A DNA stretch of 64,000 nt, from assembly GCA_020847545.1 (NCBI GenBank), contig JADLBV010000007.1, forward strand, positions 1-64,000. Direction: 5' to 3'. The notes below the pieces were generated by a model. The model searched no databases. It was not told where the DNA came from and was given only the letters and a program-made list of their open reading frames with translations. Source of the DNA: Phycisphaerales bacterium (GTDB lineage: Bacteria; Planctomycetota; Phycisphaerae; Tepidisphaerales; Tepidisphaeraceae). The translations under genes were made by a program, and so were the position numbers. Positions 27,128-37,985 of the stretch are shown here, piece after piece; within the stretch, counting starts at the first letter, position 1; the number at the start of each line of letters is the position of its first letter.

Positions 27128-28585
27128 TCACAACGTCGCGGATTCGTCCTCGAATCCGGGCGGACGGTAACGACGTCCGCCAGCTCGCTTCCACGCGATT
27201 TGAAGCAGAATCAGCGAAATGACAGTGAGTAGCTGAAATGATGCAATCCAGACGGGAATGAAACGATATTTCGCGTCAGGGCCTTGGTTTATCACCTTTC
27301 CCATCATGTCAAGGAATACACCGGTCAACAGCCCTGCGAAGATGACCGCCAGAGCACGAACCATCGCGTTGCTGGAACTGAATTGCCCGTAGCGACTTCG
27401 CGGCAGCATGTACATCAATAGAGGAATCTCCGACGCGGTAAACAGGCCCACCAGCGGAATAGCCGCCAGGCTGCTGGCCAACAGCAGATGCCATGCAGCC
27501 CGCGGCGGGAGATCAATGAACAGGAAGGTCGCTTGCAGCGGCGTGATGAACATCAGGCCAACTGTCGCAATCAACATGAGCTTGAGTGGGTGGAACCGAT
27601 CCACGAACCAGCCTCCCAACAACAAAAAAGGAATCGTCAGCCACTGAGCCATTCCGACGAGATGGAAATAGTTTTCGATTCCAACACCAACGCTTCGGAA
27701 GAAGAATACACGAAATGTTTCCATGCACATTGACAGCGCCCAGAACGTGGACGAAGCGTACAGTAGCCAATAGAGTGGTTGCGAAAAGCATTCCGTCCAG
27801 TAGGTGCGCAGCGAAGCCGCCAGTCCCTGACCGCCACCGACATTCGCCGGCGGCGGCGGGTAACGGCCCTCACGCACCTTCAGGCACATCAGTCCGAACA
27901 CGGCCACATACACGACCGCCGCCACGACGAATATTTCGCGCATGTGGCTTTCGGCGAACGGTGCCACCGCCAGGTTGTACGTTCCCGCCGCTCCCAGTCC
28001 GACCATCCTGAAAACCGCGATGAATCGTCCAAGAAACTGCGCCGGGACCACGTCGTTGAACAGATACCAATACACGCTGGTCACAAAGAGATTAAAGAAC
28101 TGGAACGCGATCAGTAGTACGGCGATGACGGCTATCACGACGGTGGATGCCGTCATCCCCGACAATATACCGCGCGCTGCCAGCCAGCCGCCAATGGATT
28201 CGGAGTAACCAAGAAGCACCAGCAACAGGCCGATCATTGGCGTGGGCACGAGCAGGAAGGGAATGCGTCGTCCCCACCGACTGCGATATCGATCGCTACG
28301 GAAGCTGACGATCGGCGTGATGATCAGGTTCATCGTTGCTGACAGCGTGGTGATGAGAAGACCGATCGTCGTGCTGGAAGCGCCCAGTTCATTGAGCTTC
28401 AGCGGCAGGATGGATGGGACCACGCTCTCCATCAGAAAGAAAACGAAATCGCCCCACAGGAGCCAGGCCATCAGCGAGAAAAGCCCCCATCGTGTATAGG
28501 TGAGTGTGCCAACGTGGTATAGGCGATCTGATGCCGTCTCCCTCTCGACGGGCACGGTTTCATCGCTGGATGAGGTGGCGCTCAT
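27128..28585 (-). CDS. MFS sugar transporter (GPH/SLC45-like), locus C
   Basis: 485 residues with twelve likely transmembrane helices. The cytoplasmic loop after helix 2-3 reads FRSDRYRSRWGRRIPFLLV, the D-R-x(n)-R-W-G-R-R-x-P motif typical of glycoside-pentoside-hexuronide:cation symporters and plant-type sucrose carriers. A second half begins around FFRSVGVGIENYFHLVGMA. It would import mono- or oligosaccharides released by the other products of locus C. Its start overlaps the sialidase-like gene stop by 4 nt (ATGA). It is the only transporter among loci A to D, which suggests that the other loci rely on carriers encoded elsewhere. Confidence 0.86.
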   Translation of the reverse strand: MSATSSSDETVPVERETASDRLYHVGTLTYTRWGLFSLMAWLLWGDFVFFLMESVVPSILPLKLNELGASSTTIGLLITTLSATMNLIITPIVSFRSDRYRSRWGRRIPFLLVPTPMIGLLLVLLGYSESIGGWLAARGILSGMTASTVVIAVIAVLLIAFQFFNLFVTSVYWYLFNDVVPAQFLGRFIAVFRMVGLGAAGTYNLAVAPFAESHMREIFVVAAVVYVAVFGLMCLKVREGRYPPPPANVGGGQGLAASLRTYWTECFSQPLYWLLYASSTFWALSMCMETFRVFFFRSVGVGIENYFHLVGMAQWLTIPFLLLGGWFVDRFHPLKLMLIATVGLMFITPLQATFLFIDLPPRAAWHLLLASSLAAIPLVGLFTASEIPLLMYMLPRSRYGQFSSSNAMVRALAVIFAGLLTGVFLDMMGKVINQGPDAKYRFIPVWIASFQLLTVISLILLQIAWKRAGGRRYRPPGFEDESATL

Positions 28586-29721
28586 GCGAGATCGATCTGG
28601 AAGATCACGCCCCAGACGGTCATGTCTTCCGGAGGGGGATAGGGATAGTCGTTGCCGCGATGCCCCACTGCGAGAATCCGCCCGTCGTCAAGCTGCACCG
28701 ACTGCGGGTAGTACCCCGCCGGCGGGAGCGTGGTCCGATGCCAAGAATCGCCGTCATCGACCGTCGCCCAGACGCCTTCATGGGAGATGTAGAGCAGCAC
28801 GCCTTGGCGGGTCATGCGCAGTTCCGGCTGCCCGCCGTGCGGAATATCCAGAAGTTTGACCGGACCGGCCATCCACCGTCCGGCTTTCTTCGTGACACGC
28901 ACCTGTCGTCGTGGAGCGCCATTGGGCGCATAGGAGAGCGACGGGCCTTCGAGTTTCAATTCCGCCCGGCAGATAACCAGCAGGTCGCCGTTGCTCAACT
29001 CCGCTACCGCAGGTTCCGGCAGGCCGACCTGACCGTTTTCGTTCGGCGCGATCAGGATCGGCGCCGACCAACTCTGCCCGTGGTCTGACGAGGTCGTTAG
29101 ATACGAATTGACGTTGTAATATTCGTTTTCGTCGCCACGCTGAATGCCATAACCGACGGCGGCGACCGTGCCGTCGCGCAATTCGATGATACGATTGATC
29201 CAGAGGCGTCCCAGGTGTCCGGTGACGTGCGGCGAAATGATTTCGACGTTCTGCGCCGCAGGCCAGGTCAGGCCGTCATCATAACTTCGAGCGATGCAGG
29301 CGCCGCGCCCTTTCCATGCCGCGTCGGCCAGGTCCATGTGCATCCGGTGCGCCAGCGTCACGCCGCAGCGCAGCCGGCAAATGCAATAAAACGCCGCATG
29401 GTTCCACATTCCCGGCACGTCGAGTTCCGTGACCTGCTGCAAGCCGGCGGGACCGATGTTCCGGGCATCGACGTGGAAAAGCCGCTGTCGCTTGTTCAGT
29501 CCCGTCATGTTGTAGAACGAATTCGGGAAAGCCCGGTCAAATTCAGGCGGCATGATGGGCGGCGGGCGATTCAAATCGCCGAAGATGTGCAGCATACCCA
29601 GCATCGGCCCGCGCTCGCCGCTCCACAACGTACACCAGGCCACCCAGCACGGATTTTCGGGCGGATGGTACAGATTCGGCACGATTTCCACGCGGCTGAT
29701 CTTAAATACAGGTATTTTCAT
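28582..29721 (-). CDS. BNR/Asp-box sialidase-like protein, locus C
   Basis: 379 residues without a signal peptide. Three Asp-box motifs are present: SYDDGLTW (near residue 160), SSDHGQSW (near 220) and VDDGDSWH (near 330), the turns of a six-bladed sialidase-type propeller. An N-terminal region rich in PPENPCWVAWC precedes it, and GLPEPAVAELSNGDLLVICR resembles the central strand of exo-sialidases; a full arginine triad is not obvious. Glycoside hydrolase or phosphorylase activity is possible. I chose the ATG at 29721, 4 bp after the DUF4091 stop, over an earlier in-frame start lying inside that gene. Lack of a signal peptide places it in the cytoplasm with products imported by the MFS carrier. 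Confidence 0.8.
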   Translation of the reverse strand: MKIPVFKISRVEIVPNLYHPPENPCWVAWCTLWSGERGPMLGMLHIFGDLNRPPPIMPPEFDRAFPNSFYNMTGLNKRQRLFHVDARNIGPAGLQQVTELDVPGMWNHAAFYCICRLRCGVTLAHRMHMDLADAAWKGRGACIARSYDDGLTWPAAQNVEIISPHVTGHLGRLWINRIIELRDGTVAAVGYGIQRGDENEYYNVNSYLTTSSDHGQSWSAPILIAPNENGQVGLPEPAVAELSNGDLLVICRAELKLEGPSLSYAPNGAPRRQVRVTKKAGRWMAGPVKLLDIPHGGQPELRMTRQGVLLYISHEGVWATVDDGDSWHRTTLPPAGYYPQSVQLDDGRILAVGHRGNDYPYPPPEDMTVWGVIFQIDLA

Positions 29722-29725
29722 GTAG

Positions 29726-31528
29726 TCACCGGCAGACGCGTTGAATGCGTTCACACAACTGTCCGATTTTGTGCCGCGCCTTAATCAGGGATTTCCCTGA
29801 ATAATCCCAGTTCCCCAACTTGAGCGGGTCCTTGTCTCGAATCACACCCGCTTCGTTCAGCAGACGCGATGCTTCCTTGACCATAGATGATCCGGGATGC
29901 CGCTGACCGAGCTGCTCAGACAGATTGTTCAACAGCCAAAGATATTCGTAATCCTCCATCCCCTGACGGAGGAGTTCAAAGCGAATTGATGTTACTGGCC
30001 CGTCCTTCCCTGGGTATAGAACACACGTGTTGGGAAACTCTTCATAGGCGAACCACGCCGTCAGATCGGTGAACGGACCGAAACCATCCATGTCGTATTT
30101 CCAGCAGAACCACATGCCCAATCGGTATGCCGCCGGCATGGCGTCGGTACGGTACAGGCCAGGGAAATAAGTCCATATCTGCCGTCCGCGCGCGCGCTCG
30201 GCCTGCTCACGCTGTTCGTGACCCGCCAGCACTGTCGTGTCGATCGCCCAGATATACACATTTTCTGCGATTTCGGAAGAAAACGGATCGGCGTTGAGCG
30301 TCACCATGGTCCGCAGCGGCGGCGTTACCTGGTGCGCCCAGCGGGTGGCCTGTCGGGTGTAATCGAAATCGTCGATGCCCGGCACATGCGATTGATGACC
30401 TTTGTGTGGCTCACCGGCCATGTACGCGATCGAGCGATCCATCCAGCCGTTGGACTTAAGATGGTCGGCCATTCGCGAATACTCCGACGCAATCCGTCGC
30501 CAGTCCTGCGCGGTGCGATGCTCCCAGTCTTTCATGAAATCGGCCCAGACATAGGCTTGCGATGCTTCACTGAAGACGAATGGCGTAGAGAAATATCCGG
30601 CGATCCGCGGTTCCATCCCGATGTTCCATGTTCCTGGCCAGAGAAAGGCGGTCTGCCCGCGAGAGACTGCAAAGCGCATGTCGGCGTCGAAAGCCGACCA
30701 ATCCGTGCTGATCGAACCATCCCGCCTAAGTGTCTGGCGAATGCTCAACGGATAATACGAAGGCGCCGATGGGCTGATTCGATGATCGAGATACATTTCG
30801 ACATACTTTTTGCGCAGCGCGTCGAACTCGGCGGTCCCCTGTGTCAATCCACTGCTTTCGGATAACCCGCGCTCCCAGAGATAAAAGAGGTTGGGCAGAT
30901 GATTCTCCCGCGGCAGGTCAAAATCCCACACATGAACGACCAGCGGAACGACGGTCGGCGCACTACCGGCGGGCGCGACGCGTATTTCACCGCGATAGAT
31001 TCCAGCGGGCGTATTTACCGGCGTGTGCAGATCGACCCAGATCGGTTGGGCGGCACCGGCAGATACGTTGAACTTTTCAGCGCGGCGCAGCGGGTCCGGC
31101 CAGGCGATTAGGCGTCGAGTATCCAACATCCCGCACTCCAGTTCCTTCGGAAGCTAGCGTTTCGGATTGTCCGGTACGAAATCGACAACATAACAGGTGA
31201 TGCTTTCCTGCGCCAGCACGTCACTGGAATCATCGCGTTTGAGTTCCGTCCAGGAAATGTGAACGTCGGTCAATGAGTGATCCCCTGCCAGAATCACAAC
31301 CTGAATCGACTCGTGTTCCTGTCGCGCGGTCCATATTTCCGCCCGTTTTTCCCGAGCGGAGGGATCGAAATCGGCCGCCTGCGGCCCGACGCGCTCCATG
31401 TCACCGACGACCTCGATTTGATAGCCCATCACTGCCGCGGGCGTCGATCCCCGCGACGGCATGGCAACACAAAACATCATTGGAATGATGGCGAGGAACA
31501 CCACCATCGTGGATGTCGCATCTTTCAT
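29726..31528 (-). pseudogene. DUF4091 protein interrupted by one in-frame TAG, locus C
   Basis: One reading frame of 601 codons contains a single TAG at 31156-31154. The first 124 codons give a signal peptide (MKDATSTMVVFLAIIPMMFC) and a sandwich domain ending VVDFVPDNPKR. After the TAG the same frame continues LPKELECG-MLDTRRLIAWPDPLRR, where intact DUF4091 proteins read directly into the WPDPL block. The remainder is a barrel with MAGEPHKGH and a C-terminal DUF4091 signature RQGMEDYEYLWLL. There is no frameshift and no other damage, so this is a recent nonsense mutation, a base-call error, or read-through. The downstream part could restart at ATG 31129 (467 aa), but that product would lack a signal peptide. 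It keeps the locus C gene order between the PEP-CTERM and sialidase genes. Confidence 0.75.
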
Positions 31529-31584
31529 GTCTTACCGATCTCAGTTGAAGTACGCGATCACCTTTTCCAGCACATCCGCCAGCG

Positions 31585-32391
31585 TTAGACAGAAGGATGC
31601 CCCATCCGCCGTCGTACCAGCAAACCGCCCGCCAACGCCAGAATCAGCAGACCCGTACCCGGTTCGGGGACCGCCAGATCGGTGTACTGAAGATTGTCAA
31701 AGCGAGATTGTCCCCCACGCCCGTAGGCGCCCATGAGCACGCCGGCGTATTGGAAGTTTCCGCTGACGGCGCCGACGCCGCTGGCGGTGTTGCCATTGAT
31801 GATGAACGTGAAGGCGCCACCGGCGCGCTCAATCGTGAGATGGTCATAGGTCGGCCAGCCATTTCGTCCAACATTGACGGTGCCCAGCAACGTGCTGCCG
31901 CCGCTCAGATAGGCCGCGCTGATCGGCGCGGTGGCCTGGCGAATTTCCCATCGGTCCTGCACGTCGTTGCGACCGAAAAACAGCGACTTGCCGCTGCTCC
32001 AGGGATCGGTCGATTCGCTGAGGATCAGCCCCATCATGTAGTTTCCCGCCGCATAGACGCTCCTGGCATCGACCTCTACGCGAACGTCTGTTGTCAGGGT
32101 TGTGTCATTTCGAATCTGAGTCTGTTCGTCAAGACCAACACTCCCTCCATAGTTGACTCGCAGCGCGCCAGGCAACGGATAAGTTGCGCCGATGTCATCG
32201 TCAGGCCAGTTGAAAATAAAGTCGATGTCGTCGCCGGCCCGACTGGCGTTGAAACCGGCGGTATACGTCGGCAGCGATGTCGGCGTACTCCCCTGGTAGG
32301 TGAAATCATCGATAAAATACGGCGATGCTTGCGCACCAGCGCCCAGTCCGACGATCATCAAGGCCGCGGACAACCGAGTAACTGCGTTCAT
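31585..32391 (-). CDS. PEP-CTERM sorting domain protein, locus C
   Basis: 268 residues: signal peptide MNAVTRLSAALMIVGLGAGA, a single beta-sandwich domain (YFIDDFTYQGSTPTSLPTY, TTDVRVEVDARSVYAAGNYM, DHLTIERAGGAFTFIING, SGNFQYAGVLMGAYGRGG) and the tail VPEPGTGLLIL...LVRRRMGHPSV. The layout of DDFTYQ...FDNLQYTDL is that of LamG/concanavalin-like sugar-binding domains common in PEP-CTERM proteins. It is not closely similar to the A and B PEP-CTERM proteins. AAGGAG precedes the ATG. It lies 24 bp after the pseudopilin gene and 56 bp before the interrupted DUF4091 gene. Confidence 0.86.
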   Translation of the reverse strand: MNAVTRLSAALMIVGLGAGAQASPYFIDDFTYQGSTPTSLPTYTAGFNASRAGDDIDFIFNWPDDDIGATYPLPGALRVNYGGSVGLDEQTQIRNDTTLTTDVRVEVDARSVYAAGNYMMGLILSESTDPWSSGKSLFFGRNDVQDRWEIRQATAPISAAYLSGGSTLLGTVNVGRNGWPTYDHLTIERAGGAFTFIINGNTASGVGAVSGNFQYAGVLMGAYGRGGQSRFDNLQYTDLAVPEPGTGLLILALAGGLLVRRRMGHPSV

Positions 32392-32415
32392 GACTCACTC
32401 TCCTTTTGTGGCCGC

Positions 32416-33051
32416 TTAATTGCGATACCACGGGTTGGTTGATGCCCCCTGGTCCATGTTCAGATCCGCTCTGGGCATGCCGGCCACATGGCCGTCCAGA
32501 TAGCCCATGTTCAATGACATGTTGGGATGCCTGCTAACGGGCAAATACGCTTCAAGTCCCAGCAGGATCACCGTACCGGTCAGACCGTCGCCAACGACGA
32601 TCTTTTCGCTGTGTCGGCGGACGGTGGACCGCTTGACGAACGTCAACCAGGCGTTGACCGGTTCGGTGAGCGTACTGCCGAGATATCCGTTCAAACCATA
32701 CGCCGTCTTGAATGTCGGATACGGATAGGCCTCATCCGCCAGAGCCGGACAGGTGAAGATATTGTTGGTTCCTTCGCCAATCTGGATCGTCTTGAAAGCG
32801 TACCGGCTGATCTTTTGGTTCCAGAACGGATCGATCAGCTCGGAAGACGCCACGCATGGCATGAAATCGTGATAATCATTGGCGTACTGCTGAAGCAGAT
32901 AGGAAAGTTGCCGCAAGTTCGACATGCACGCGACCTGTTTAGCCGACTCGCGGGCGCGGTTTAGCGCGGGCAGTAGTATGGATATAAGCAGCGCGACGAT
33001 GCCTATTACCACAAGAAGTTCGACAAGGGTGAAACCCATTCGTTTTTTCAT
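32416..33051 (-). CDS. type II pseudopilin with His-Xn-DG block, locus C
   Basis: 211 residues. [20 protein letters not shown] has a canonical prepilin processing site and helix, then [23 protein letters not shown]. The C-terminal block [20 protein letters not shown] has ten residues between His and Asp-Gly. The start at 33051 is supported by GAGG and lies 8 bp after the regulator stop, so translation is probably coupled. Here the pseudopilin comes first after the regulator and the PEP-CTERM gene second, the reverse of loci A and B. Confidence 0.9.
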
Positions 33052-33059
33052 GGAACACC

Positions 33060-34214
33060 TCATGACTCCTGCGTCTGCCGCAGGCGGCACCCTTCGCCGT
33101 AACGCTCGATGGTGAACGATTCGACGATTCGGTCGGTCCAGTTCAATTCCATTGCGGCCTGCGGTTCAATTTGCAGCAGCTTGCACGTCGGCTCGATCGA
33201 AATTGCGTGAAGCTGATCGCCGCGCCCTTCGAGGCAGTCGATCATCTGTCGCACGGCCCGGCGGGCGAATTCTTCGGCGGGAATCAACTGACTCCACCGC
33301 ACCACGTTCGGACCACTGATGATGTTGGGCATCTCCTCGACAAACGGCAACGGAACATACAGCAGACTCTGCGGATTCGGATGAATCGCCTTGAGTGCGG
33401 CGGGCAACAACGCCACCGGCCAGTGCTCGGCGATCAACGCGGCATTCTCAAGCCCGCGCCTGCACAGCATCTGCGCCACATGATCGATGCGTTCCGGTTC
33501 CAGCGCGCAGAGATGCATCGACGGCTGGCGGGCATGGCGCTCGATCGACTCGACGTACCCGGCGAGCATCTCCTGGCCTGTGTGATATTCCGGACTGGAA
33601 GGATCGGCCTCAAACCAAACCGGATCGCGCCCCGCAACGAGTAGTTCGCGCGTAATCTCGCGCAGCAGCGACGTGGCTCCCAGCCGAACTTGTGGCGCCG
33701 GCACGCTCAGCGAGCAGTTGCCCAGCACCAAATACGGCAGCGAATGCTGCTTGAAATATTCGATGTGAAAATCGTGCACCATTCCATAGAGAAGGACCGC
33801 ATCGACCGATCGGCGGCGGATCATCTCTGGCGGATTGCCGCCCAGTACGCGGTCGGTCTGCATCTGTTCGATGACGAGTTCATAACCTGCCTGTTGAGCC
33901 AGTTTCTGCACGGCAAATGCAATCAGGCGCAGATAGGACCCCATGTCAGGCATGTCCAAATAGAGCAGGCCAAGACGATGATGTTTCTGTACGACGGCCT
34001 TGTCCTTCGCGCCGGCTAGAAAGGTTCCCTGCCCGTGGCGACGCTCGACAATACCCCTGCGCGCCAGCAAATCGTTTGCCCAGCGAACTGTCCCGTAGGT
34101 GACGCCCAACTGAACGGCCAGTTCCCTTTCCGACGGCAACGAATCGCCGGGACGAAGGTTTCGCTGGCGAATCAAGCGTTCGATATTATGGGCAACCTGA
34201 CTGTAGCGACTCAT
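33060..34214 (-). CDS. GntR-type/LacI-sensor transcriptional regulator, locus C
   Basis: 384 residues. A GntR winged helix occupies residues ~5-72 ([60 protein letters not shown]) and a LacI-like sensor follows ([68 protein letters not shown]). The regulator at 16749 has the same domain order, but the sequences differ widely. The ATG at 34214 was preferred to an upstream TTG. The promoter region is very AT-rich and contains AATATAC (34216-34222) and GTATATT (34243-34249) as an inverted pair, a candidate operator. It presumably represses locus C until a sugar is bound. Confidence 0.87.
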
Positions 34215-34639
34215 AAATATACTCAAGTGCTATGTGCTCTACGTATATTACTTCCATCTTCGTGATTTTGCAAATTATTTTTGATATATAATATAATTTG
34301 TAGATTTTATCAGACTTTTCCAAGTAGATTACAAAGCATATATCAACTGCGCTGCACAGTTGAAGTGAATACCTAACCCGAATATTTCACGTTTTTTATA
34401 GGCCTACCCACAACTTGAATCAGCCCAGGAGCGGATTCGGCGACAATGCGTCAGATGATCTGGGACGAAGCGGTGGAGGATGTGATCAAAAAGAGTCATG
34501 GAAGGGCCGTGATCCGCCGATTCGAACTGCTACGGGCGGCGTGAAAACGGTCAGTTTGAGTAATGATGCGGCCGTGAGAAACATCGCGGCATGGCGAGGA
34601 GGCGGCGGATAATACGATGTTTATGTCTTCTATTTGAAC
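34215..34639. other. gene-poor region: AT-rich promoter zone of locus C and a small remnant
   Basis: The part nearest the GntR gene (34215-34400) is AT-rich, with the inverted pair AATATAC/GTATATT (34216-34222 and 34243-34249) and TATAATATAATT near 34288. The rest returns to GC-rich composition. It holds one 32-codon plus-strand frame (34446-34544, starting MRQMIWDEAVEDVIKKSHG) that could be a gene fragment; I see no match for it. No RNA gene or repeat is visible. Confidence 0.35.
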
Positions 34640-36472
34640 TCAAGTTGACCGCTCGCCACGGCTCCAGACCTGAAACTGTGAATCCGCGGCCCATGTATTG
34701 CCGGCCGAGGCGTAATCGCAGTAGTGCGCATCGATTTGCTTGTCATTGCACATCACCGGAACGGTCCACTCTCCCCAGATGTCCCTTCCATGTGTTGATG
34801 TCGAACAGGGTGACATCTGGATTTGCCCGTGATTTGCCATTATGAATCGAACCGGTTCATCCCATCGGCCGGCGTCGAGGCGTTTGTCCCTGGCGAGCAA
34901 TAACGGGCCGTACATCACGGCCTGATGAACGATCTTTTGTTGATCGGTCTCCTCCAGCAGGCGAGGATTCATGCCAAGGGAGATTTCGATTCGATCATTT
35001 GGCTCCCAGGTTCGGTCGATGCTCAGGTATGTGCCGGCGATCACCTTTTCGATCGGCCTGCCATTGACCTGAACCCGCGCGGATTCACACCATGCTGGAA
35101 TCCTAAGCCGCAACACAAACCGCGCTGCGCGGGATGGATCCACACGCAGGAGAATGTCGCCCGACCGGGGATAATCACTCTCCATCGAAAGTTTCAAATC
35201 AATGCCCTCATCCAACGTCACATCGGCCTGATATTGGCCGTAGAAGTTAATGACCGGCCCTTCATCCCCTCGCATGACACACATTCGTGGCCAGAGCATC
35301 ATGATCCGCGGACCGTTGGCCACGCAGCAATTTTGCTCCATCCCGCACTGGTTTTCGCCGGCCTCCTTGATGCCGGACATCGGATTGTGCCGGCAGAACC
35401 ACGATCCATCGGGCTTCATGGAATGCAGATAGGCATTGTAAAATGCCCGTTCAATCTCATCGGCGACCTTCGGATCATTCGTCAATTGCAGAATCTGAAG
35501 ACCAAGCTTGATCCAGAGCATCGCCGTGCAGCTTTCCATCATTTTCGCCAGCGGCTCCAACTGATGGCGGCGCCCATGATACCAGCATTCCCCGGCCGAC
35601 CCCGACCCGCAGGCCATGATTTCATCATCGCGAATGGATTGCCAGGCATTGACGGCCGCGTTCAGATACTCCCCTTGGCCGGTCTGGCGATAGAGATGAC
35701 ACAACGCCTCGTAACAGGCCATCATTTCATACGCTTTTAGCCCATTCTCACGCGACCACCAGTTCTCCTCGGTGATCTTCGCATGGTTGCGATCGCCGAC
35801 CGGGATGCGATCCAATGCCTTGTCGACCAGACGGGGCGCATCGTATCGTCGCCAATCCGTGACAATTGACTGCGCATGGTCAAGATAGCGTTCTTCGCCC
35901 GTGTGATGATACAGGTCCACCAATGGTTCGATGATCGTGCTTGAGGGCATGCCCAGAAACTTTCCGATCTGCACCACGCTGGTGTCATATCGCGCCAACT
36001 CTTCCATCGTGTAATCGGCCAGCCGTTGCGCCGCACGCAGTGCGCGCTGATCTCCAGTCGATTCATAGCAGGCCAGAAGGCCGGCCAGGGTATATCGACG
36101 CCCCCAAATGTCCCATTGCCCCCACTGCCCAGGCTGTTGAAGACAGGCGGTGATCAAACCCGCCTCATCCTGCGCCTTGAGCAATGCGTCCAGCGCTTCT
36201 TCCATCTTTTGTTTGACTGATTCATCGTGTGTGTAATTCCACGCATCGACCAGCGAGAGGAACCATTTTCCCCAAAATTCTCCGCGCCATTCCCTGTCAT
36301 CCTGCCGGGTGATGAATGGCTCCACCAGCGCGGCGATGTCCTGCCGCATGATCCGGTTGCGAATCACCGAGTCGATCCGGCCGCCGATAAAGCCGCCGAT
36401 CTTCACTTGTCCCCATGGATATGGGCGAATTGACTCATGTGAACACATCGTATTTGAGGTCATTCCATACAT
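34640..36472 (-). CDS. GH127-like (beta-L-arabinofuranosidase/DUF1680) glycoside hydrolase
   Basis: 610 residues, no signal peptide. The (alpha/alpha)-barrel of GH127 is recognisable: EFWGKWFLSLVDAWNYT, WDIWGRRYTLAGLLACYESTG, then KMMESCTAMLW with the Glu-x-Cys pair and QNCCVANGPRIMMLWPRM with the Cys-Cys pair. In characterised GH127 enzymes these Glu and Cys residues bind zinc and one Cys is the nucleophile, so the active site looks intact. A C-terminal beta-sandwich follows (VLRLRIPAWCESARVQVNG, HQAVMYGPLLLARD). The start at 36472 has AGGTGAG and lies 19 bp after the upstream stop. It should hydrolyse a terminal furanoside or related sugar inside the cell, with the ADP-ribosylglycohydrolase and PhyH genes as operon partners. 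Confidence 0.87.
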   Translation of the reverse strand: MYGMTSNTMCSHESIRPYPWGQVKIGGFIGGRIDSVIRNRIMRQDIAALVEPFITRQDDREWRGEFWGKWFLSLVDAWNYTHDESVKQKMEEALDALLKAQDEAGLITACLQQPGQWGQWDIWGRRYTLAGLLACYESTGDQRALRAAQRLADYTMEELARYDTSVVQIGKFLGMPSSTIIEPLVDLYHHTGEERYLDHAQSIVTDWRRYDAPRLVDKALDRIPVGDRNHAKITEENWWSRENGLKAYEMMACYEALCHLYRQTGQGEYLNAAVNAWQSIRDDEIMACGSGSAGECWYHGRRHQLEPLAKMMESCTAMLWIKLGLQILQLTNDPKVADEIERAFYNAYLHSMKPDGSWFCRHNPMSGIKEAGENQCGMEQNCCVANGPRIMMLWPRMCVMRGDEGPVINFYGQYQADVTLDEGIDLKLSMESDYPRSGDILLRVDPSRAARFVLRLRIPAWCESARVQVNGRPIEKVIAGTYLSIDRTWEPNDRIEISLGMNPRLLEETDQQKIVHQAVMYGPLLLARDKRLDAGRWDEPVRFIMANHGQIQMSPCSTSTHGRDIWGEWTVPVMCNDKQIDAHYCDYASAGNTWAADSQFQVWSRGERST

Positions 36473-36491
36473 GGTATTCTCACCTGCTTGA

Positions 36492-37985
36492 TTAATTAAT
36501 CGTGTAGATTGCATGAGGAAGCCATTGTTGCGTATCGGATCGGCCCACCCCGAAATTCCATGCCGCTCCACCCGATGCCGATCGCCGAACCGCCGCCGTC
36601 ACCACATGCAAACCCTTTCCCAGTTCCAAATCCTTGTGCTGGTTGGCCAGCATGACACTGCGATGCAGGGATGGGGAGACGATCCCTTTTTCACGCTCAA
36701 ATGCGGCCGCGCCGTCGATCCACACTCGGCACGGCTGTGCGGTGTTGAACATGATGCGCACCCGCTGCGGCGTCTCGATATTGACCGGAAATTTCAGCAG
36801 CAACACATCGTCTTTGAACTCTTCCGCCGACAACCTCCCCATCGTCCCATCAAACCGCACTTCCGACCAGACACCCTCCGGCAATCGTTCGATGGCTTCA
36901 CGGTTGATCGGCAACGCGCCTACGAAGGCCATCTTGGCCTTGATGCACAAATCCTTCATGTCGATTGATGGATGATCTTCGACCGGCGGTCGGCGAGAGT
37001 CGATTTTCCGGTGCAGGTTGATCACCAGGTCGGTCAGCTCATCGAGCGTCTGCGGAGGCGCGCTCAAATTCACGATTTCAGGGCTTAATACCAGTTTGTT
37101 GCCCAGCGGTTCGATCCATTTGGCCGGTATGGATGCGGGATTGATGATCCCCATCAGCGCCCCCACCGTGGCGGCGGTGCAGTCGGTGTCCCGGCCGCAA
37201 TTGTTGGCGATGCAGATGGCCTGCCCAAAGTCATCCGGCGCCAAAAGCCACGCCATGACGGTGAAGGCGATGTTGGCCGTCACATCCGTGAAATTTTCGT
37301 GGTCGTAACGCTCAAGGATTTGCCTGCGAATGGCCATCCAGTCATCCGATGCATCCATCCACCGTCGAACGTCAGTGACCGCCTGATGAATCAGGCATTC
37401 ACGTGGAATCCGACGCAGCGCCTGATCCAGCAGAACTTCCGGGTCGGATTCGACAAAAGCCAGGCTCTGCAATGCCGCCAGGAACATGGCGGCCCAGACC
37501 CCCTCGCCGGCATGGTCCACGCACGCATCCTCATACGCATAGGCCGCCGCCAACTCCGGCGTCGCGGGCGCCAAGCACGCCCACAACTCGCTGCGAATGG
37601 CCGCCCCCATTCCATTGGCAAACCAGTTGTCATACGCCCCGGTTTGCGGCGGCTTCAACCCCAGCCGCATGTTGCGTTTGGCGGCCGCATATTCATCAAA
37701 GGGAAATTCAACGTGCCGTTCCCATGCATCCGCCAGCACATGCCGGCTGACGACGGGATTGGCCATGTCCCGCAGCACGCACGCCCATACCACCTGAAGG
37801 TCCAAGTCGTCGTTGGGAAGCATCGCCTTGGGGACCGGGGTGTAAAACCACACATCAATCGGCCCAAGGTTTCCTTCAAACGGCATCCCCAGCGTTCCGC
37901 CGATGCTCTTGCCCAGCCAGCAGGCGTTGATTCGCTCACGGATGGATGAACCCAATCCACTTTTGTTGACCATCACATCGGCCAT
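36492..37985 (-). CDS. ADP-ribosylglycohydrolase-family protein with extra C-terminal domain
   Basis: 497 residues. The N-terminal ~310 residues are an ADP-ribosylglycohydrolase fold: RINACWLGKSIGGTLGMPFEG, LPNDDLDLQVVW in place of the metal-binding TDDT, YEDACVDHAGEGVWAAMF, and NNCGRDTDCTAATVGALMG, the second metal-binding signature. The C-terminal ~170 residues (FVGALPINREAIERLPEG, VRIMFNTAQPCRVWIDGAA, GKGLHVVTAAVRRSASGGAAW) look like a beta-sandwich sugar-binding module. Family members remove ADP-ribose from proteins or open ribosyl bonds. Placed between GH127 and dioxygenase genes, this one more likely acts on a carbohydrate N- or O-glycosidic bond. The metal ligands appear intact. There is no signal peptide. 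Confidence 0.85.
   Translation of the reverse strand: MADVMVNKSGLGSSIRERINACWLGKSIGGTLGMPFEGNLGPIDVWFYTPVPKAMLPNDDLDLQVVWACVLRDMANPVVSRHVLADAWERHVEFPFDEYAAAKRNMRLGLKPPQTGAYDNWFANGMGAAIRSELWACLAPATPELAAAYAYEDACVDHAGEGVWAAMFLAALQSLAFVESDPEVLLDQALRRIPRECLIHQAVTDVRRWMDASDDWMAIRRQILERYDHENFTDVTANIAFTVMAWLLAPDDFGQAICIANNCGRDTDCTAATVGALMGIINPASIPAKWIEPLGNKLVLSPEIVNLSAPPQTLDELTDLVINLHRKIDSRRPPVEDHPSIDMKDLCIKAKMAFVGALPINREAIERLPEGVWSEVRFDGTMGRLSAEEFKDDVLLLKFPVNIETPQRVRIMFNTAQPCRVWIDGAAAFEREKGIVSPSLHRSVMLANQHKDLELGKGLHVVTAAVRRSASGGAAWNFGVGRSDTQQWLPHAIYTIN

Follow-up and report, generated by a model that had tools for sequence, protein, structure and literature searches.

A single in-frame TAG in a GH123-like gene of a draft planctomycete genome: consensus error or recent nonsense mutation

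The window, a 64,000-nucleotide stretch of a Phycisphaerales contig, carries a GH123/DUF4091 gene that is split by one in-frame TAG inside its N-terminal domain. The chance that this TAG, in a secreted accessory gene of GH123-like type from a draft metagenome-assembled genome, is a consensus error (of sequencing or assembly) was put at about even. This reading was slightly favoured over a real, recent nonsense mutation, for which the chance was held to fall somewhat short of even; it was favoured because the assembly also has single-copy core genes that are cut in this way. If the TAG is an error, the organism's own gene would be open and would encode one polypeptide, running from a signal peptide through the N-terminal beta-sandwich and the barrel to the DUF4091 region. 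The assembly (162 contigs, 95.57% complete) is presumably of metagenomic origin.

The interrupted frame and its domain

The initial annotation had described a single in-frame TAG splitting a DUF4091 gene, and this was confirmed. The frame from ATG 31528 reads ...VPDNPKR, stop, LPKELECGMLDTRR...WPDPL...; 124 codons are followed by the TAG at 31156..31154 and then by 475 codons to the stop at 29726-29728 (minus strand), with no other stop between. A run of 475 codons after the TAG would be open by chance with a probability of about 1e-10 (equal codon use). The TAG is 31 kb into its contig, which is 132 kb long. The signal peptide is putative, having been called by eye from the hydrophobic N-terminus. 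The features of the gene and its two downstream neighbours are as follows.

29726-31528, minus strand: GH123/DUF4091 gene, whole read-through frame, opened by ATG 31528
31157..31528, minus strand: upstream piece, 124 codons, with the hydrophobic N-terminus and the first strands of the GH123 N-terminal beta-sandwich
31154..31156, minus strand: in-frame TAG, residue 125 of the read-through frame, in a low-confidence loop (122-140)
31136..31139, minus strand: GGAG, possible ribosome-binding site 6 nt before ATG 31129, seen in the sequence
29726..31129, minus strand: possible downstream reading frame, 467 codons from ATG 31129, with the rest of the beta-sandwich, the catalytic barrel and the DUF4091 region
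30413..30415, minus strand: codon 372, Gly in place of the catalytic Asp of the DE motif (Glu at 373 kept)
28582..29754, minus strand: BNR-like protein, overlapping the 3' end of the GH123-like gene (PF13088, 21 bits, below the cut-off of 31.4)
27128..28585, minus strand: MFS transporter (PF07690, 69.3 bits)

When the pieces were searched separately against Pfam, the downstream piece matched PF13320 (GH123_cat; 41.7 bits, above the curated cut-off of 23.1) and the last third of PF22680 (Glyco_hydro_123_N_2; 28.2 bits, profile positions 99-140), and the upstream piece gave no Pfam match. With the TAG read as X, in a 426-residue test piece with the stop at 126, a single PF22680 match was obtained (45.6 bits, cut-off 27) that covered profile positions 29-140 over residues 70-185 and spanned the stop; the two pieces therefore belong to one gene, with the stop inside one domain. 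The pattern is that of two same-frame pieces matching one homologous protein, with one stop between them.

A fold model built on 20 sequences (pLDDT 76.3, pTM 0.83) placed residue 125 in the low-confidence stretch, which separates strand 110-118 from strand 143-148 in the N-terminal beta-sandwich. Strands of one sandwich are thus predicted on both sides of the cut, and neither product would be expected to form a natural module. The sandwich is joined to the barrel only when the TAG is read through, both in the PF22680 match and in the predicted fold, which resembles 8k2j. The best matches of the model among solved structures were GH123 enzymes. Read through, the gene has the same fold as GH123/DUF4091 beta-N-acetylgalactosaminidases, the closest solved structure being NgaDssm (8k2j; Foldseek E 2.9e-34, TM 0.65 for the query and 0.73 for the target; sequence match E 3.2e-20), and BvGH123 (5l7r) is similar as well. 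Unlike those enzymes, it is split by a TAG and carries G-E as its catalytic pair, and its identity to relatives is 19-27%.

Homologues were compared at the site of the stop. From 28 homologue frames, three (L101, L108 and L110) were left out as wrong-frame translations; 20 of the 25 retained frames (19 of 24 distinct genes, L041 and L107 being the same gene) aligned through the stop position in one open frame, and the alignments of the other five started only after it. Among 80 outside loci (best alignments from a scan of named genomes), the position of the TAG was crossed by 74, and no stop was found at that place or anywhere in the aligned stretch of any of the 80, though no close orthologue was found in the 101 and 397 genomes searched (overlapping sets), where the best long matches had about 32-33% identity. 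One same-genus genome was examined, and its best match reached 37% identity along a portion of the protein. Homologues show no conserved residue at the TAG site.

Possible translation past the TAG

It had been proposed that the downstream half is made from ATG 31129 without a signal peptide, as a cytoplasmic product. This start is in frame with ATG 31528, stands 24 nt past the TAG with the GGAG 6 nt upstream, and opens a frame of 467 codons, so a cytoplasmic product is possible. It is unlikely to be functional, given the 24-nt gap and an ordinary duplex energy: 12.7% of the gene's positions have an upstream energy as good as that at ATG 31129 or better, and a gap of about 20 nt is reported to cost native E. 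coli gene pairs most of their reinitiation (PMC10666635). The product would have neither the first half of the N-terminal beta-sandwich nor the catalytic Asp. Four point mutants at the interface between the N-terminal domain and DUF4091 are described as precipitating (PMC11087588); by analogy, a piece without half of the N-terminal domain would be a poor candidate for a stable protein. A natural fission, with the upstream piece secreted, the downstream piece reinitiated in the cytoplasm alongside the BNR protein and the MFS carrier, and at least one of them functional, was accordingly regarded as improbable, since the cut falls inside one beta-sandwich domain and the homologues that cross the site are unsplit.

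Read-through of a real TAG by near-cognate decoding, which would yield a little full-length secreted Gly-Glu GH123-like protein beside a truncated secreted fragment, was considered more improbable still. The frame after the TAG is undamaged, and PMC7918605 argues that bacteria commonly have in-frame stops under purifying selection, and offers read-through as one interpretation. The gene resembles those proposals in having one stop in an otherwise open gene. It differs from them in that none of the homologues compared has the stop, release factor 1 (RF1) is complete and a suppressor tRNA was looked for in vain. The check for an amber-suppressor tRNA suggested in the initial annotation was run, and no CUA anticodon was present among the 44 tRNA matches of the whole assembly (43 anticodons read by ARAGORN and one, CAT, by eye). 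RF1 has a complete 383-codon frame; an apparent TGA inside the RF1 match, which had raised the loss of this factor, proved from the ORF list to be the gene's own terminal stop. With RF1 intact and no CUA anticodon, the TAG should terminate, and a full-length product would still have no catalytic Asp. A literature search returned no report of stop codon readthrough in a bacterial glycoside hydrolase from Planctomycetes. In a weaker form of the idea, core-gene stops of the same planctomycete genus (the G001 TAGs in a PEPCK and a ROK-family gene, below) would also be read through. The case would be surprising only under read-through, which is unlikely; of the three options first offered for the TAG, consensus error and recent nonsense mutation remain, and read-through found no support.

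Interrupted genes in the assembly and in control genomes

Other in-frame stops were sought in the window's assembly (G000). Ranking by codon score was too weak, placing the GH123-like gene at index 207 of 885, and a hexamer coding model was used instead. Across 834,706 bases and 509 long ORFs, it returned 42 stops after which the coding sequence carries on in the same frame. All 42 were scanned, and one Pfam domain lay across the stop in 5: IMP dehydrogenase (IMPDH; TAA), SufC (TAA), PYC_OADA (PYC; TAG), FdhD (TGA) and the GH123-like gene (TAG). As SufC had been flagged earlier and the GH123-like gene was given, 3 of the 5 are unselected. The remaining candidates had no domain over the stop, many of them plainly being adjoining genes that share a frame. 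The four other domain-crossing stops are located as follows.

L193 1762-1764, G000 contig C138: in-frame TAA in sufC, between sufB and sufD
L201 2376-2378, G000 contig C27: in-frame TAA in IMP dehydrogenase (single gene)
L212 8158-8160, G000 contig C5, minus strand: in-frame TAG in a pyruvate carboxylase-like gene, within its conserved carboxylase domain
L071 330-332, G000 contig C2: in-frame TGA in an FdhD/NarQ gene, near the contig start

IMPDH, SufC and PYC each had one match in G000 at the cut-off used. Their orthologues in the sister genome G001 are open (96%, 95% and 94% identity, respectively), as they are in G018 and G022; those of IMPDH and PYC are open in G006 too, where no SufC match was found. 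At the stop positions, G001 shares its residue with every outgroup compared: Glu (IMPDH), Glu (SufC) and Tyr (PYC, common to four relatives). As the stops are of three kinds and replace different residues, they follow no recoding rule. In SufC, residues on which the other sequences agree are also replaced at two more positions, one 4 codons before the stop and one 4 codons after it. FdhD, compared with G001 only, has a replacement two codons ahead of its stop; no odd replacements were found within 5 codons of the stops in IMPDH and PYC. In the GH123-like gene, the loop around the TAG is not conserved, so that a neighbouring odd substitution would not be recognisable there.

In whole-genome family searches, a stop inside the match was found in 1 of 52 ABC domains (SufC itself), and in 0 of 40 GFO_IDH_MocA, 0 of 4 sulfatase and 0 of 9 GH123 matches. 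When frames were compared between G000 and G001, five strongly coding ones (with a ratio of synonymous to nonsynonymous differences of 2.4 or more) had a G000 stop in their interior, namely IMPDH, sufC and three others (L203, L194 and L201); weaker frames in the list also held stops. The L203 stop was an alignment-gap artefact, the L194 frame was judged spurious antisense from its position and residues, and the 133-codon L201 frame, with two TGAs, was set aside. Because IMPDH and sufC were known beforehand, this comparison gives no unbiased excess.

The same scan was applied to two control genomes. In G001 (678,643 bases), all 30 candidates were scanned and 2 proved to cross a domain. The single-contig, same-family genome G013 (800,000 bases) gave 10, all scanned, of which 1 crosses a domain; it yields fewer candidates, and the sensitivity of the procedure there may be lower.

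L262 11371-12837, minus strand: PEPCK gene (G001), domain-crossing TAG
L235 16015-17142: ROK-family gene (G001), domain-crossing TAG
L271 12486-13766, minus strand: DAO-family oxidoreductase gene (G013), domain-crossing TAG

Counts as low as 3 unselected stops, 2 and 1 could not reveal a difference in rate. At the G001 PEPCK stop, all six other genomes have Ser, and a second odd residue follows two codons after the TAG. Genus-wide recoding of TAG was considered for this gene and rejected, as the TAG of the G000 PEPCK precedes the start codon, a different place from that in G001. The G013 DAO-family gene is possibly a real pseudogene. Base differences were also counted over 79,403 aligned bases of G000 and G001. 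The G-to-T class exceeded its reverse (1510 vs 1134), but G-to-A was as skewed or more (3972 vs 2646 for A-to-G), and the excess was put down to what looks like a shift in base composition.

The case for a wrong base at this TAG, which we infer, thus draws on core single-copy genes being hit in two draft genomes and on clustering of replacements (SufC, FdhD, PEPCK), not on rate. A living population in which IMPDH, SufC and PYC are all truncated is hard to accept, and of the 73 interrupted coding sequences of M. smegmatis, 28 are reported to be sequencing errors (PMC1852416). Against an error stand the position of the site deep inside its contig, the other 60 kb examined on that contig (C9:64001-124000), where no domain-crossing stop was found, and a rate not clearly above that of the controls.

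The catalytic motif and the origin of the stop

The catalytic DE motif of the gene reads Gly-Glu at residues 372-373. The pair aligned to these residues in 8k2j is D-E, and Asp stands at the position aligned to 372 in 24 of 24 relatives (L096 does not extend to the motif) and in 74 of 78 outside loci (2 of the 80 do not extend to it). The claim that the gene bears no damage other than the TAG therefore held for the reading frame and failed for the active site. According to PMC11087588, DE is kept in 94% of 734 DUF4091 sequences, the motif Asp stabilises the 2-acetamido group, and Asp-to-Glu/Asn mutants of characterised enzymes have little or no activity. With Gly-Glu in place of DE, the gene was filed as GH123-like by homology and not as an active GH123 enzyme; judging from the motif, a normal GH123 enzyme would not be expected even at full length.

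The missing catalytic Asp suggests relaxed selection on the gene, and it is mainly this residue that brings a real pseudogene close behind a consensus error, fitting the former as well or better. If real, the TAG would have arisen by a recent nonsense mutation, either fixed or still segregating, and the accessory gene that carries it would be on the way to losing its enzyme function or would already have lost it; the product would end at residue 124 and no active enzyme would be made. The motif already changed, the inactivity reported for Asp mutants, the accessory nature of the gene (with its distant best match in the same-genus genome), the termination expected at TAG, and the occurrence of such a stop in single-contig G013 all agree with this. 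It is opposed by the core-gene stops, which show that the assembly carries false or at least doubtful stops, and by the otherwise good state of the gene, which apart from the Asp matches 38 of 42 strongly conserved columns and has no second stop or frameshift.

In both readings the gene resembles interrupted coding sequences (ICDS), with adjacent same-frame pieces and one in-frame stop, in an assembly whose core genes also have stops. The causes of ICDS described in PMC1852416 include both real mutations and sequencing errors, and in-frame stops of both origins are already well known. Unlike the ICDS studied there, the present gene comes from a draft assembly and has no known close orthologue. 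Should the TAG be a consensus error, single in-frame stops in such draft genomes are not to be taken as biology, and sufC, IMP dehydrogenase and pyruvate carboxylase would offer a simple internal check; should it be real, this would be one more accessory glycosidase on its way out.

The surroundings of the gene, described as intact in the initial annotation, are so, the neighbouring ORFs being open. The gene lies in a carbohydrate locus (27128-37985, minus strand) with the MFS carrier, the BNR-like protein and a PEP-CTERM protein, and further with a GntR regulator, a GH127 and an ADP-ribosylglycohydrolase-like gene. The same locus holds a DUF1559-like protein, which we take to be of the pilin type.
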